From a virus: DNA of 24,645 nt. A model generated the notes under the pieces. The model made no database searches, had not been told where the DNA came from, and saw nothing but the letters and a program-made list of their open reading frames with translations. This document shows, in pieces, positions 11,601-24,187 of the stretch. Location: positions 1 to 24,645 of the IMG/VR virus record IMGVR_UViG_3300007539_000207; one strand, given 5' to 3'. Every line of letters starts with the position of its first letter. Positions within the stretch are counted from its first letter, which is position 1. Position numbers and translations under genes: made by a program.

Positions 11601-14600
11601 AAGATGTAACGCCAACAGTATCAAGAACTCCAAGATTATCAATCTTAACAATTTCAGGGAGCTTTGCACTTGGTCTCAGTGTCTTATCGGATGGATAATC
11701 AAAACCAATATCTCTAAGTTTTGTCTTATTAATAGAACCTATTGTATTGCTTTTAACTTCAAAAACGGCATTTGAACCAATTCCACTAACAACTCCATCA
11801 ATTGATGGAAGTTTATAATAATTTGCACCTTTATTAAAGGTTTTTAATTCCGCAATAGAACCAATACCTGTTGCGGAATCGGTGCTGTAATTAATAATAG
11901 CCGTGCTTGAAGTGTATGATGTTCTTTCTGGAACTTCCTCAAGAAAATACTTGAAAGAAGTTGAAGATTCTATAGAAACACTATGTTTTCCAGAATAATC
12001 ACTATTGAGAACTTGAAGTTGATTATATCCAACAACTTCTGGGTCACAAACAATTAAACTCTTTTCTCTTGGGATCAAATCATTTGAAATTGGAATCAAC
12101 TTGTAATACAGAATTTTTGGAAGTTTATTACTTGTGGTTAAAGTAACTTTTCCATCTACACCAACAGTGCCAGTAGTTAACACTTCAAAATCTTCACTAT
12201 CAGCAACTTTATCGTATTCTGTATCAAAATTGCTATCAGCATATAGTGTAAATTTAAAAGCAGGATACTTAATAGAATTTCTACTGAAGGTCAGACTAGA
12301 ATCTGAAAGGTCAAATTCAACTGTAGTGTCTTTATAAACTTTAATAGGTGGATTGATTGGAGAAAGTTCTGAATCTGCCGCAGAAGTAATATCTACAATT
12401 GTTGGAACTGAACTGATTGAATCATAATAAGATTCTGACAACCTAATCTTATCTTTATCGACAATCACAACATAGTAAATTTTCTCATCCACTAAACCAC
12501 CAGCAGGAGTGGACGCGGTATAAATTACCGATTGCCCTAATTGATATCCATGATTTTCAATCGTGATTTCATTTGTTTCTACATTTATTTCACCTGCAGA
12601 AATTTCTTTCTTATCGATAACAATTCGATTATTATAATCATTATAAGAAACTGCAAAAGATGTAGTGATTGATGGTCTTACATCAACATAAACATTATCT
12701 AAAACAGTCAATCCATGGGTGGCTGCAGTAGACACTGTAACGATATTTTTAAATGCAGAGACTGAAACTACATTTGGATAGTTTGTGGCAAAACTATGAT
12801 TTGACCCTTGTCCATATCCTGTGAAGTACAATAGACCCTGATTTGCATTAGTAGAACCAATACCAGTAAATGTTCCAGTAGAGTTTAAACCAACTCTGAC
12901 TGTAGAAACACCTATTTGGTCTTCGTTAATTTTAGCCACGAACAGTTTCTGTTGATCGGCAAGAGCAAATGTAGAAACTCCTGCTGTAGAAACGCCAATA
13001 GATTCATCCTGATTATTCAGTTTGTAAATTAATTCGTCACCAGTTTTAAGTCCATGTCCTGGAAGATACAATGTCTGTGTTGGGAGGAATATGTTAGTTG
13101 CGCCAGACCCTGGATTAACGAAAGTAATTGTAGTTCCAATACCAACTCCAGAACTCATACCAAGTGCTAAAGTATTTTGAGGGTCAAAATACAATTCCTT
13201 ATTAAGTTTGAAGTCAAATGATGTATTAAATCCTACTTTAGCAGTGAATCTTCTGGGTTCTTCATAGAAAATTGTTGTCGCCGTATGAGCGGCACCAGAA
13301 GTTCCAAGAACTTCTCTAAGAACTCTAATTCTCGAAGATACTTTATCAATATTGAGAACTTTTACTTTTTCGTCTTCAATTTTAAAAATATCATTCTCAA
13401 CAATATTATCAATACCAACGCCGTAAATGTTGAAGTAGGTTACGATTCCAGTGGCTGCAGTATTACCAACACCTTCTCTAAGAACTAAAGTAGAGGTGGT
13501 AACTCCAATATTATACTTACCCGTCAGTTTAACTGCTGTTGTGCTTAATCCGGCAATAGAAACAAGTTCTTTATTCAGAAGTTCATGTGGAGAACTTGCA
13601 CTGAATGAATATTCTCCGGTTTTTCCTGTTGGAATGACTTCTACAGAACTAATAGATGTAGTTGCACAACTGATAGATGATACAGATTTGCCTCCAACTT
13701 TTGATACTCTAACATCAGCATTATATCCGCTGGTGTCAGTATTATTGAAAATTAGACTATCGCCAACCTTATAATTTGTACCTCCAGTAATAATTCCTAC
13801 ATTATCAACAGTGCCTGGAGTTGCAAAAGTAACTTTCGATAATTGATTAGAGTTTAATCTGAATGGGCTTTCAATATAATCATAAGAAATTTCCGTTTCT
13901 TCCAGGTTATAATATTTTGTGTTTCTTAACCAATTATTTGCTTCAACATCATAATCATCATGGTTTGATGATTTAAGATAACTTAGATTTGAAGGTTTTG
14001 ATTGTAAAGCATTACCAATTAAATATGGAAACTCTGGAACTTTATAGTTAGTAAATACTCCCTGACTTTCTGGATTTTCTGACAGCGTTGCAAAATACGC
14101 ATAAGTTCCATTTGGAAATTCTGGAGTAATACAAAATCTTCCATTATTTTCGTCAAGAACTGCATCACTTGCAGAATTTACATATTCATAATCTTCAACA
14201 AAAAATCCTTCTGGAAATACTGAAACTGGAGGCCTATTTGGTCGAAGTTTTAGTTTATATCCAGTTTTCATCTGGACAATGGTTCCACCATTTTTCTTCA
14301 AATAACCAAATGGACCATAAATTGGATTTCCATCATATGCCCATCCAATAATTGGTGAGTGATTTCTTGATGTTATCTTTTCCGCACCATTATCTAACAC
14401 CAAATCTGGCGAGTTGTATATTATAGTCCCATCTTGGTTATTTTGATATAATATTTTTCTCAGATTCCTTGGTGCATATAAATTTGCACACTGAAGTCCA
14501 TTTTTTTCATTGAGGCCAGGAACGATAAAACTATCATCCGAGGATATATTTACAAGTTCTTTTGCAAACTGGTTTACACCCCACCTTTGTAGTTTTGTTC

Positions 14601-20822: not shown

Positions 20823-20975
20823 TCATTCGTAAAGTGGTTCTGGATCACTTTGAGGATCAAATAATTCACCCTCTTGTTGCAATTTCTTCTTTTTAGGTGT
20901 CAAATCATCATTTGAGATTTCACGAAGCATTTTTTGATGATTATGATTAGCTAAATTGTCTAAAAAATCATTCAT
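20823..20975 (-). CDS. Hypothetical small protein (50 aa)
   Basis: I do not recognise this 50-residue protein (MNDFLDNLANHNHQKMLRE...). It is hydrophilic, with a lysine cluster (PKKKKLQQ) and an acidic, proline-containing end (DPQSDPEPLYE). The frame is open upstream to 21119, but the start at 20975 is preferred: AAGGAG lies 7 bases before it, inside the end of the preceding gene, and the first 8 bases overlap that gene in an ATGAATGA junction typical of translational coupling. It is the last gene before the gp25 late promoter. Confidence 0.75.
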   Translation of the reverse strand: MNDFLDNLANHNHQKMLREISNDDLTPKKKKLQQEGELFDPQSDPEPLYE

Positions 20976-21645
20976 TTTCGTTCTCCTTAGGTAAATTTTC
21001 GCGTTCTTTAGCAGTTTTCCAAAAATATTCGTCCTCACGACCCATTCCAAGTCGATCAAAACCATTTTCAACACTATAATATTGAGTTGATACCTTAAAA
21101 TCAGGCATTTTGGGTTCAACAGGTGTCAAACTATTATCAAAAATACGCATTCTATTGTTTGGATAGAGTGCATATTGTCCATTATTCAATTTAATGAGGT
21201 TATGAGACTTATGTTCAGCTGGATTTTCACTGGTTGCATAATCAATTACATCACAATCTTGATGATAGTTATCAATTGTGCAAATATATTCGCCTTTTAT
21301 TATACCATGATCGCGAGTATAGCACTCAAAATCCATTGAACCAATAAATTGTTTATGAATTGATACCACACCATAATCCATACAATTCCAAAACTGTAGA
21401 TTTGGTAGGTTCATATCAGGTGTAGGTGTTACTGGTTCACTTACAAAAGCACTAATAGGTAATTTATCATACATTGCAGCATATTCTGGTAAGTAAGTCT
21501 CAAAATAAAAAGCACGCCCAGGTATCGATTTACACGATACCCAAACGCCCTTTACAAATTCACCATGACCACTTTGATGATCAGTGAGATATTCTTTTCT
21601 TACCCATACTTCAACAGAAGGTAAGTTACAAATTAATGCTGACAT
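20968..21645 (-). CDS. Hypothetical protein (225 aa)
   Basis: This 225-residue protein begins MSALICNLPSVEVWVRKEYL. I recognise no domain. It is aromatic- and His-rich, with no membrane segment or signal peptide. The C-terminal third carries polar segments (GMGREDEYFWKTAKERENLP). Codon use and placement fit the surrounding phage genes, and proteins of this look occur in T4-like cyanophages. The start at 21645 has no Shine-Dalgarno sequence. Instead a perfect 7-bp hairpin (21649-21666) ends 3 bases before the ATG, immediately after the stop of the 48-aa gene. The end overlaps the next gene by 8 bases. Confidence 0.8.
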   Translation of the reverse strand: MSALICNLPSVEVWVRKEYLTDHQSGHGEFVKGVWVSCKSIPGRAFYFETYLPEYAAMYDKLPISAFVSEPVTPTPDMNLPNLQFWNCMDYGVVSIHKQFIGSMDFECYTRDHGIIKGEYICTIDNYHQDCDVIDYATSENPAEHKSHNLIKLNNGQYALYPNNRMRIFDNSLTPVEPKMPDFKVSTQYYSVENGFDRLGMGREDEYFWKTAKERENLPKENENE

Positions 21646-23388: not shown

Positions 23389-23646
23389 TCAAAGTTCGTC
23401 GAACATTTGATCCATCTCGATAACATTGATTTTAGGGTCATTCCACTTAACACCGTCGCGAGTAGCTGCATGATTGAATGAACATGCTTCCAGACAATCA
23501 ACAAAGGTACGATAATCCTTTGCCTCACGCGCTAAGTGATAAAGACCCTCATCATTACCGATCCAGAGTGCAACATTCCAAGTCTCATAATTGGTCCACC
23601 CGTTATAAGTGGTATCGGTGAGATTAGTCTGGAAAGTGGTGGTCAT
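23389..23646 (-). CDS. Small NYETWNV-motif phage protein (85 aa)
   Basis: This 85-residue protein carries GWTNYETWNVALWIGNDEGL at residues 16-35. The motif is characteristic of a widespread family of small phage proteins of unknown function (labelled DUF7249 in some databases, from memory). The rest holds a helical segment (YHLAREAKDYRTFVDCLEAC) and an acidic C-terminus. No catalytic residues are evident. The gene lies between two hairpins and so may be a single-gene unit. It has no Shine-Dalgarno sequence. Its leader is a near copy of the leader ahead of the 42-aa gene at 24074. Confidence 0.85.
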   Translation of the reverse strand: MTTTFQTNLTDTTYNGWTNYETWNVALWIGNDEGLYHLAREAKDYRTFVDCLEACSFNHAATRDGVKWNDPKINVIEMDQMFDEL

Positions 23647-23653
23647 AGAAGTT

Positions 23654-23695
23654 TGAGTTGTGCTTACATAACTAGGACACTTTAGAGGCTACAGT
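23654..23695 (-). repeat. Duplicated leader element, copy A
   Basis: This 42-base segment directly upstream of the 85-aa gene matches 24082-24123 at about 36 of 42 positions. The 20 bases nearest the gene (23654-23673) are identical. On the minus strand it includes GTTATGTAAGC, a start codon followed at once by a stop, and ends in AACTCA a few bases before the true ATG. Confidence 0.75.
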
Positions 23696-23710
23696 TAGTA
23701 GCCCCTAAAG
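23680..23710 (-). terminator. Strong hairpin between the 49-aa and 85-aa genes
   Basis: CTTTAGAGGCTAC and GTAGCCCCTAAAG form a 13-bp stem with one A-C mismatch and a 5-base loop. It lies 11 bases after the stop of the 49-aa gene. There is no U-run downstream, so termination would be inefficient; transcript processing or 3'-end protection is an alternative. One arm lies inside leader copy A. Confidence 0.55.
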
Positions 23711-23721
23711 TACGATGATAC

Positions 23722-23871
23722 TCAGAAGGTCACAGATTCCCCACTAACATAACTCACTGCGTCACCTTGATTGTCACTTTGCACATCACTCTCAATAACA
23801 TCGAGGACTGCCAAGATGTCATCACCAGTGTTAGCAACTGACAGAAGACCAAGCATCATTTCGCGGGACAT
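23722..23871 (-). CDS. Hypothetical small acidic protein (49 aa, start uncertain)
   Basis: From ATG at 23871 the product is 49 residues, beginning MSREMMLGLLSVANTGDDIL. An N-terminal amphipathic helix is followed by an acidic, polar tail. It resembles a class of tiny cyanophage proteins with a MLxLLS..NTGDEILxxLD pattern, recalled without a function. The frame stays open upstream to a GTG at 23937, which would give 71 residues and place the start 8 bases after the previous stop. That GTG has AAGG directly touching it, which is too close for a good ribosome site. The ATG is preferred because the family-like sequence begins there, though it also lacks a clear ribosome site. Confidence 0.65.
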   Translation of the reverse strand: MSREMMLGLLSVANTGDDILAVLDVIESDVQSDNQGDAVSYVSGESVTF

Positions 23872-23945
23872 AATAACGAAGAAAAGTGAAGTAAACTGTG
23901 TGTCGAGTAGTTTATAGTCTTGCTCAGGACTTGACACCTTAACTA

Positions 23946-24074
23946 TTAATAATCAGTGTCACCGTTGATGTACTGTTCCACATCAAATTTTCTATCAGTC
24001 ATCTCAGGGATGTCATAGATTTCTCCAGGAGCATCAGCAATCTCTTGGAACATATCAAACACGGTGTCATCCAT
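23946..24074 (-). CDS. Hypothetical tiny acidic protein (42 aa)
   Basis: A 42-residue frame begins MDDTVFDMFQEIADAPGEIY and ends INGDTDY. It is strongly acidic (about a dozen Asp/Glu and only two Arg/Lys). Function is unknown; small acidic early phage proteins often bind host enzymes, but nothing specific supports that here. It is the first gene after the consensus promoter at 24159-24187 and is preceded by leader copy B. There is no Shine-Dalgarno sequence. The next frame begins shortly after its stop. Confidence 0.65.
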   Translation of the reverse strand: MDDTVFDMFQEIADAPGEIYDIPEMTDRKFDVEQYINGDTDY

Positions 24075-24081
24075 GTGGTTG

Positions 24082-24123
24082 TGAGTTGTGCTTACATAAC
24101 TGAGACATTTTACCAGCTACAGT
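24082..24123 (-). repeat. Duplicated leader element, copy B
   Basis: This is the partner of 23654-23695, with the same 20-base core (24082-24101) and about 36 of 42 bases matching overall. It ends 7 bases before the start codon of the 42-aa gene and again includes the start-stop ATGTAA. It would lie in the transcript from the promoter at 24159-24187. Confidence 0.75.
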
Positions 24124-24158
24124 AGTGCTTACTTCCCCCTCCTGTAAGTTACTCTGAT

Positions 24159-24187
24159 ATTATAAAGCTTCTCAGCACTGATGTCAA
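24159..24187 (-). promoter_or_regulatory. Consensus host-type promoter TTGACA-17-TATAAT
   Basis: TTGACA (24182-24187) and TATAAT (24159-24164) on the minus strand are perfect and 17 bases apart. A start near 24152 gives a leader of about 78 bases to the 42-aa gene, which includes leader copy B. An early, host-polymerase promoter is the natural reading. Confidence 0.85.

Follow-up and report, generated by a model that had tools for sequence, protein, structure and literature searches.

The window, meaning the whole stretch of 24,645 nucleotides that was analysed, is a 24.6-kb viral fragment whose long genes have T4-like structural relatives in phage records. The end studied here, on the right, matches Synechococcus phages, and the three of these that were examined belong to the Kyanoviridae. 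Two small genes lie there on the minus strand: an 85-aa gene (23389–23646), assigned to DUF7249 (PF23907) and phrog_871, and a 42-aa gene (23946–24074), whose product has no Pfam or PHROG match. By tblastn, the latter has a relative in S-SKS1 (E 6e-6) and weak ones in S-SCSM1 (0.01) and S-SRM01 (0.9). Between the two, on the same strand, lies a 71-aa ORF (23722–23937) that begins with GTG or, in a shorter form, with an internal ATG.

A sequence-only reading of this region had described two 42-base segments, sharing 20 bases, a few bases ahead of both gene starts, and had proposed that a start-stop (ATG followed at once by TAA) within them tunes initiation as part of a shared translation-control element. 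The description holds. The minus-strand segments 23695–23654 and 24123–24082 are 86% identical over 42 nt and have AGTTATGTAAGCACAACTCA (20 nt) in common, and exactly 7 nt separate each of them from the ATG of the 85-aa or the 42-aa ORF. A search of the window for AGTTATGTAAGCACAACTCA with up to three mismatches gave two matches, compared with none in 100 shuffled sequences; the repetition is beyond chance expectation. Both segments contain ATG-TAA (23669–23664 and 24097–24092). As the same reading had noted, neither gene has a Shine-Dalgarno sequence at normal spacing; the string AGGAGGGGG, 61–69 nt upstream of the ATG of the 42-aa gene, is too distant to serve.

Two other features of the window were recorded. 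Near the right end, the segment 24334–24440 holds about three 33-nt units (CATAAAACACAAGGTCTCAGAGGATTTAAGAGA) in tandem. What appears to be one gene at 20968–21645 of the window, at 58–774 of locus L009, and at 818–1501 of locus L010 carries conflicting annotations: one of the two loci gives purM/phosphoribosylaminoimidazole synthetase, the other gives gene purM with the product ferredoxin, and the window protein matches phrog_3704 “ferredoxin”. At least one of these names must be wrong.

The leaders are copies of a recurrent 37-nt element

Both leaders are variants of a 37-nt element that heads several to at least a dozen genes in some ocean cyanophages. The element consists of a common core, AAAGTGTCCC-WRTAGTRTRAGCA, and a 9-nt tag upstream of it; positions are numbered from the first A of an invariant AAA, which is position 0. 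Copy 1 in the window (23661–23697, minus strand; positions −14 to +22; PWM score 42.0) lies upstream of the 85-aa gene and has its first A at 23683 and position 16 at 23667. Copy 2 (24089–24125, minus strand; PWM score 24.5), upstream of the 42-aa gene, has these at 24111 and 24095. The 42-nt repeats correspond to element positions −12 to +29, and both genes start 21 nt past position 16. The 71-aa ORF between them has no copy of its own.

A search for further copies in relatives had been proposed in the sequence-only reading, and it turned up many: 184 copies in 23 element-bearing records of Synechococcus T4-like phages, with none in the reversed control. Most of these records came in by way of the 85-aa gene's relatives and were picked for carrying the element, so that 184 is no survey figure. 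The weight matrix, which was refined on its own hits in 26 loci, found copies in 25 of the 26, on a single strand in each locus. Of 80 relatives of the 85-aa gene that were retrieved, 56 had their upstream regions inspected; many of these regions had a recognizable version and others had none, the recognizable leaders being of the type CCTCTAAAGTGTCCCTATAGTGTAAGCATGACTC ahead of ATG. Matches at E ≤ 0.01 were found in 32 of 36 IMG/VR records, a selection made mainly by relationship to the 85-aa gene, and a pattern search matched 7 of 12 records, with none in its reversed control.

In 14 reference phages, a model built from the sequences of 30 leaders found 4 to 12 copies in each of five (SynMITS9220M01, 12; S-SM2, 11; S-B05, 8; RN05-S, 6; S-B43, 4) and none in ACG-2014d, Syn9, S-SKS1, S-CREM1, S-SRM01, S-SCSM1, S-PM2, P-SSM2, and Syn1. 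Searching the reference phages by blastn with the two window leaders gave one match, at E 0.9, and in a second run none. At a lower score, complete genomes yielded weak extra matches away from the cluster, two in S-SM2 and one in S-B05, and the reversed control yielded one, in S-PM2. S-B05 (MK799832) also has two more element-like copies, near 156038 and 156966, on the opposite strand and far from the main cluster.

A common core and a phage-group tag

Written out in full, the core reads CC-N3-AAAGTGTCCC-WRTAGT/RTRAGCA, where the slash separates positions 15 and 16. Over the 184 copies, C at −5 is conserved in 99% and AAA in 100%, followed by GTGTCCC; further downstream come T12 (98%), A13 (89%), G14 (84%), and T15 (97%), then a purine at position 16 (A 53%, G 46%, C and T 0%, in whole percents), T17 (97%), a purine at 18, and A19 (89%). 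The A at position 11 reaches just 55%.

The tag, at positions −14 to −6, behaves differently from the core. Examples are AAGGGGGGT in S-SM2, TATTACTCA in SynMITS9220M01, AACTTGGAT in record G001, and TAACTGAAG in record G006. Across the 18 records with at least four copies (183 copies, one at a record edge having been dropped), tag identity is 94% within records versus 37% between them, a difference reached in none of 1000 label permutations, whereas core identity is 79% within and 71% between. One-position shifts among tag types lower the between-record tag value slightly. About ten tag types could be told apart by eye among these 18 records; the commonest, TTACTCA, is common to six of them, so the tag marks a phage group and not always a single phage. 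Uniformity within records and difference between them is the pattern of co-evolving recognition. When a 12-mer version of the tag was searched with up to one mismatch, it occurred only at elements in the complete genomes of SynMITS9220M01 (10 of 10 matches, covering 10 of its 12 copies) and S-SM2 (12 of 12). In S-B05, 14 of 15 matches had the core, and two lay near 156 kb on the other strand.

A complementary guide RNA was considered and rejected, as no antisense 12-mer tag (up to one mismatch) is present in SynMITS9220M01 or S-SM2. A structured cis-regulatory RNA was likewise rejected: RNAalifold predicted 0 pairs and hence no consensus structure for 30 leaders, and no Rfam family was hit, either by the end of the window at E values up to 1 or by four element-rich loci at the gathering cut-offs. 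An inverted repeat that could form a hairpin is directly visible in the window at 23679–23711 (minus strand), its 3′ arm overlapping the tag, the AAA, and the next two letters of copy 1; given the lack of consensus structure in the 30 leaders, it is no general feature of the element.

Start codons within and behind the element

Positions 16–18 read ATG in 66 of the 184 copies, and in 64 of these 66 this ATG opens the longest downstream frame (distance 0). SynMITS9220M01 and S-SM2 together have eight such copies, and for each of them the GenBank start is the embedded ATG. ATG at position 16 is thus found almost only where it is the gene's own start. The other 118 copies include three with no start found (no ORF of 35 codons opening with ATG in the following 150 nt), two with an ATG at offset 2, and six with an ATG at offset 6, five of which head DUF7249 genes with a conserved ATG 15 nt later and one of which has an ATG 12 nt later. 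In the remaining 107, the start lies at least 14 nt past position 16, with a cluster at 15–21. At 2942–3157 of L010 (S-SM2 gp90), the GTG start given in GenBank reads through the element; the gene probably begins past the element.

These counts bear directly on the start-stop, which occupies positions 14–19 in copy 1. At this site the 184 copies read GTATGA (64), GTGTAA (44), or GTATAA (18), among others; ATGTAA or ATGTAG occurs in just 11, two of them with TAG. Relatives that keep the leader therefore mostly do not keep ATGTAA, the outcome that the sequence-only reading had itself named as counting against its proposal. Since ATG-TAA/TAG is present in 11 of 184 copies and the gene's own start codon sits at the spot in 64, the start-stop is not a conserved feature, and in the two window copies it is only an incidental, minority variant. 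What survives of the earlier proposal is what looks like a shared expression-control element at gene starts, of which the start-stop is not the essence.

Predicted 5′ ends of the transcripts

The distances from element to start codon were compared with those of sigma70-type sites in the same loci (at least 5/6 in both hexamers; n = 117), where only exact duplicates were removed and related phages were counted separately. At 85 of the 117 sites, an open frame beginning with ATG follows the predicted transcription start site (TSS) within 150 nt: four at distance 0, one each at 3 and 7, 52 at 12–25, and 27 at 35–144. The element distances best fit this predicted spacing when the 5′ end is placed at position 17 (Kolmogorov–Smirnov distance [KS] 0.08; bootstrap 95% range, positions 15–19), whereas a TSS at position 22 fits poorly (KS 0.43). 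The leaderless share differs between the two sets, 64 of 184 elements versus 4 of 85 sigma70-type sites, which argues against a promoter.

With an mRNA 5′ end near position 17, the A and T of the window ATG-TAA would not be transcribed. With a 5′ end near 16, 64 genes would be leaderless and most others would have leaders of about 14–30 nt. Judged by these patterns, control of transcript 5′ ends appears to fit the element better than start-stop tuning does.

A candidate promoter class

The reading that we prefer, and to which we give about an even chance, is that the element represents a phage-specific class of promoters yielding leaderless or short-leader mRNAs. Action as a DNA promoter, the position of the TSS, and the factor acting in trans are all things that we infer from sequence patterns. 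In this scheme, the element would set 5′ ends at the heads of small-gene clusters; tag and core would be read together by a factor that the phage specifies; and transcription would start at about the T/R step, core positions 15/16. If the next three letters are ATG, a leaderless mRNA would result, and otherwise the start codon would mostly follow 14–30 nt downstream. In the window, each copy would drive its own gene, giving both the 42-aa and the 85-aa gene a leader of about 21 nt. Copy 2 is additionally preceded by a host-type sigma70 promoter, the site with consensus hexamers (TTGACA-17-TATAAT, 12/12) at 24159–24187 on the minus strand.

The neighborhood of the element offers evidence on both sides. 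Orthologs of element-headed genes were examined in five phages that lack the element: 12 of 30 are preceded by a correctly spaced −10, as against 5 of 46 among the remaining genes of that region (Fisher p = 0.0045), a contrast that partly reflects cluster heads versus internal genes; the orthologs with a −10 include those of the SynMITS9220M01 (L123) genes at 12209, 14359, and 9682. Within SynMITS9220M01 and S-SM2, a good sigma70 promoter is present at 1 of 19 element-headed clusters versus 6 of 28 others, so that the two rarely coincide, although the difference is not significant (p = 0.22); the first count becomes 2 of 20 if a weaker S-SM2 copy at 51.9 kb, near a sigma70 site, is added. In three phages (L134, L138, and L141), the element follows the end of an intrinsic terminator by 16–36 nt, and the gap holds no sigma70 site. 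Against a promoter, just 3 of the 31 terminators within the arrays stand ahead of an element, 6 of 142 sigma70-like sites are followed by an element within 120 nt, and a sigma70-like promoter lies just upstream of copy 2, of the S-SM2 copy at 58.5 kb, and of the L047 and L084 types. The element contains no host-like −10 at the spacing demanded by a TSS at 16–17.

As a separate observation, element-negative phages have promoter-like sites of their own that share CTATAAGAGTCAAAG just ahead of gene starts. With up to two mismatches, Syn9 has four (46346, 47261, 48615, and 51057) and ACG-2014d has three (28288, 30367, and 32607), and three element-bearing phages have 0–1 stray matches. S-SKS1 has two sites with TATAGAGGTAA-CAAG.

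Alternative explanations

The strongest rival, which we consider unlikely though worth serious attention, places the element in RNA: a transcribed leader, to which the ribosome or a phage protein binds, would control translation without a Shine-Dalgarno sequence, from the embedded AUG or from a downstream start. The start codons inside 64 copies, with GenBank agreement for eight, speak for it, as does the absence of a Shine-Dalgarno-like string at 18 of 19 element heads; moreover, the copies behind sigma70 promoters would fall in the 5′ UTR. However, distances to the start that range from 0 to about 30 nt and more are odd for ribosome positioning, and a start at either 0 or at least 14 nt mirrors the spacing of sigma70 TSSs. 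The missing consensus structure and the terminators directly upstream in three phages also count against an RNA-level element, and the translational repressor family RegA occurs in nine of nine records, with or without the element.

Cleavage is a less probable option. A nuclease would cut polycistronic RNA near position 15/16 and so produce leaderless and short-leader mRNAs; the geometry of the 5′ ends would be the same as for a promoter, and the tight intercistronic location of the element suits such a site. Promoters account better for the terminators just upstream in three phages and for the sigma70-type promoters that other phages have at the corresponding position.

An ordinary host sigma70 promoter with TATAGT (core positions 10–15) as its −10 is improbable to a still higher degree. 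Such promoters have −35 and −10 hexamers 16–18 nt apart and a TSS about 7 nt past the −10. Cores with TATAGT do match the −10 consensus at five of six letters, and some orthologs in other phages have a similar −10 region in front, but the resulting TSS at about 22 would exclude the start codon of 64 genes from the mRNA and is the one that fits the spacing so poorly; these two observations contradict it. In addition, position 11 is weakly conserved for a −10, no −35 is conserved, and the tag varies among records. Finally, a minimal upstream ORF tuning initiation of the two genes can hardly be upheld: ATG-TAA in both window copies and, elsewhere, GTG-TAA (44), GTG-TAG (9; 53 together), and ATG-TAG copies favor it, yet the own ATG of the gene overlaps the spot in 64 copies, 18 have GTATAA without any start, and part of the ATG may escape transcription.

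Candidate recognition factors

If the element is a phage-specific promoter, a factor should read it, and several candidates were tried. A T7-type RNA polymerase (PF00940) was rejected, being absent from eight records, seven of them element-bearing, in a search that found the T7 and Syn5 controls and would miss a very divergent enzyme. RegA, with its presence in all nine records, was rejected as the cause of element presence or absence. A phage-peculiar sigma factor was rejected as well: Sigma70_r2 matches weakly in eight of nine records (E ≤ 1; three over the cut-off), including element-negative ones. Subtraction of gene content yielded 16 SynMITS9220M01 ORFs for which S-SM2 and S-B05 have relatives but a set of five element-negative phages does not. 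Several of these are structural or look spurious, and none is visibly DNA-binding. One, the 80-aa phrog_19748 protein (L123 13880–14122), is itself element-headed and was found in 4 of 17 element-bearing fragments.

Relation to known systems and biological meaning

T7-type promoters are short, conserved, phage-specific repeats that are AT-rich just before the start and contain a TATAG string, and they are read by a single-subunit RNA polymerase that the phage encodes. The element resembles them as a short, repeated, phage-specific block with AT-rich sequence before the inferred start and TATAG in many copies. It differs in that its phage-specific part lies about 22–30 nt upstream of the inferred start, versus −12 to −5, and in the lack of a T7-type polymerase gene in the seven element-bearing records. 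In T4 middle promoters, a MotA box lies about 30 bp upstream of the start, and the phage has genes for MotA and AsiA. An upstream phage-specific box combined with a downstream −10-like part is common to both, but the spacing is different, the strongly conserved AAAGTGTCCC stands between the two parts, and a −10 reading clashes with the embedded start codons.

The closest known system is SAS/ESAS of cluster K mycobacteriophages, which is similar in kind. Those repeats are described as numerous in each genome, nearly always oriented alike, and placed directly ahead of the start codons of unrelated genes in the non-structural region, with an ESAS consensus specific to the subcluster (PMC3203893). 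ESAS was later reported to hold putative promoters (Adephagia, 2024; PMC11373665), and the function of SAS/ESAS is given as still unproven in a 2025 report (Yasnaya_Polyana; PMC12699233). The cyanophage element, too, is repeated, mostly in one orientation (S-B05 being the exception), at the starts of unrelated non-structural genes. Its sequence is unrelated, so that it is not a member of that system. The consensus of the 184 copies has neither the 13-bp GGGATAGGAGCCC that SAS places a few bp ahead of the start codon nor the AGGAG that SAS contains (judged from the consensus). Unlike in SAS/ESAS, tag and core form one unit in fixed order, the tag switches fully between phage groups, and a third of the copies contain the start codon of the gene.

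Intergenic repeats of halovirus HF2 carry promoters according to reporter tests (PMC8707807); HF2 is an archaeal virus, and the likeness, as intergenic viral repeats, is one of description only. A comparison of T4-like cyanophages (PMC3037559) looked for sites of four kinds, namely sigma70, T4 late, Pho, and NtcA; its passages on promoters mention no element of this kind. A literature search that covered few subscription papers returned no description of the tag/core element. Tentatively, and with the balance somewhat against it, the element may be an undescribed promoter class of ocean T4-like cyanophages, made of a core and a phage-uniform 9-nt tag, read by a fast-evolving factor or polymerase accessory of the phage's own, and giving leaderless transcripts in about a third of cases.

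That each phage keeps to one tag while phage groups differ in theirs implies a phage-specific regulator that co-evolves with the tag, and the tag/core pattern is a direct way to find that regulator. The element would also help to set gene starts and to explain the expression of many small genes of unknown function. If the element is such an undescribed promoter class, the gene clusters of each phage would answer only to its own type of factor, and about a third of the transcripts would be leaderless.
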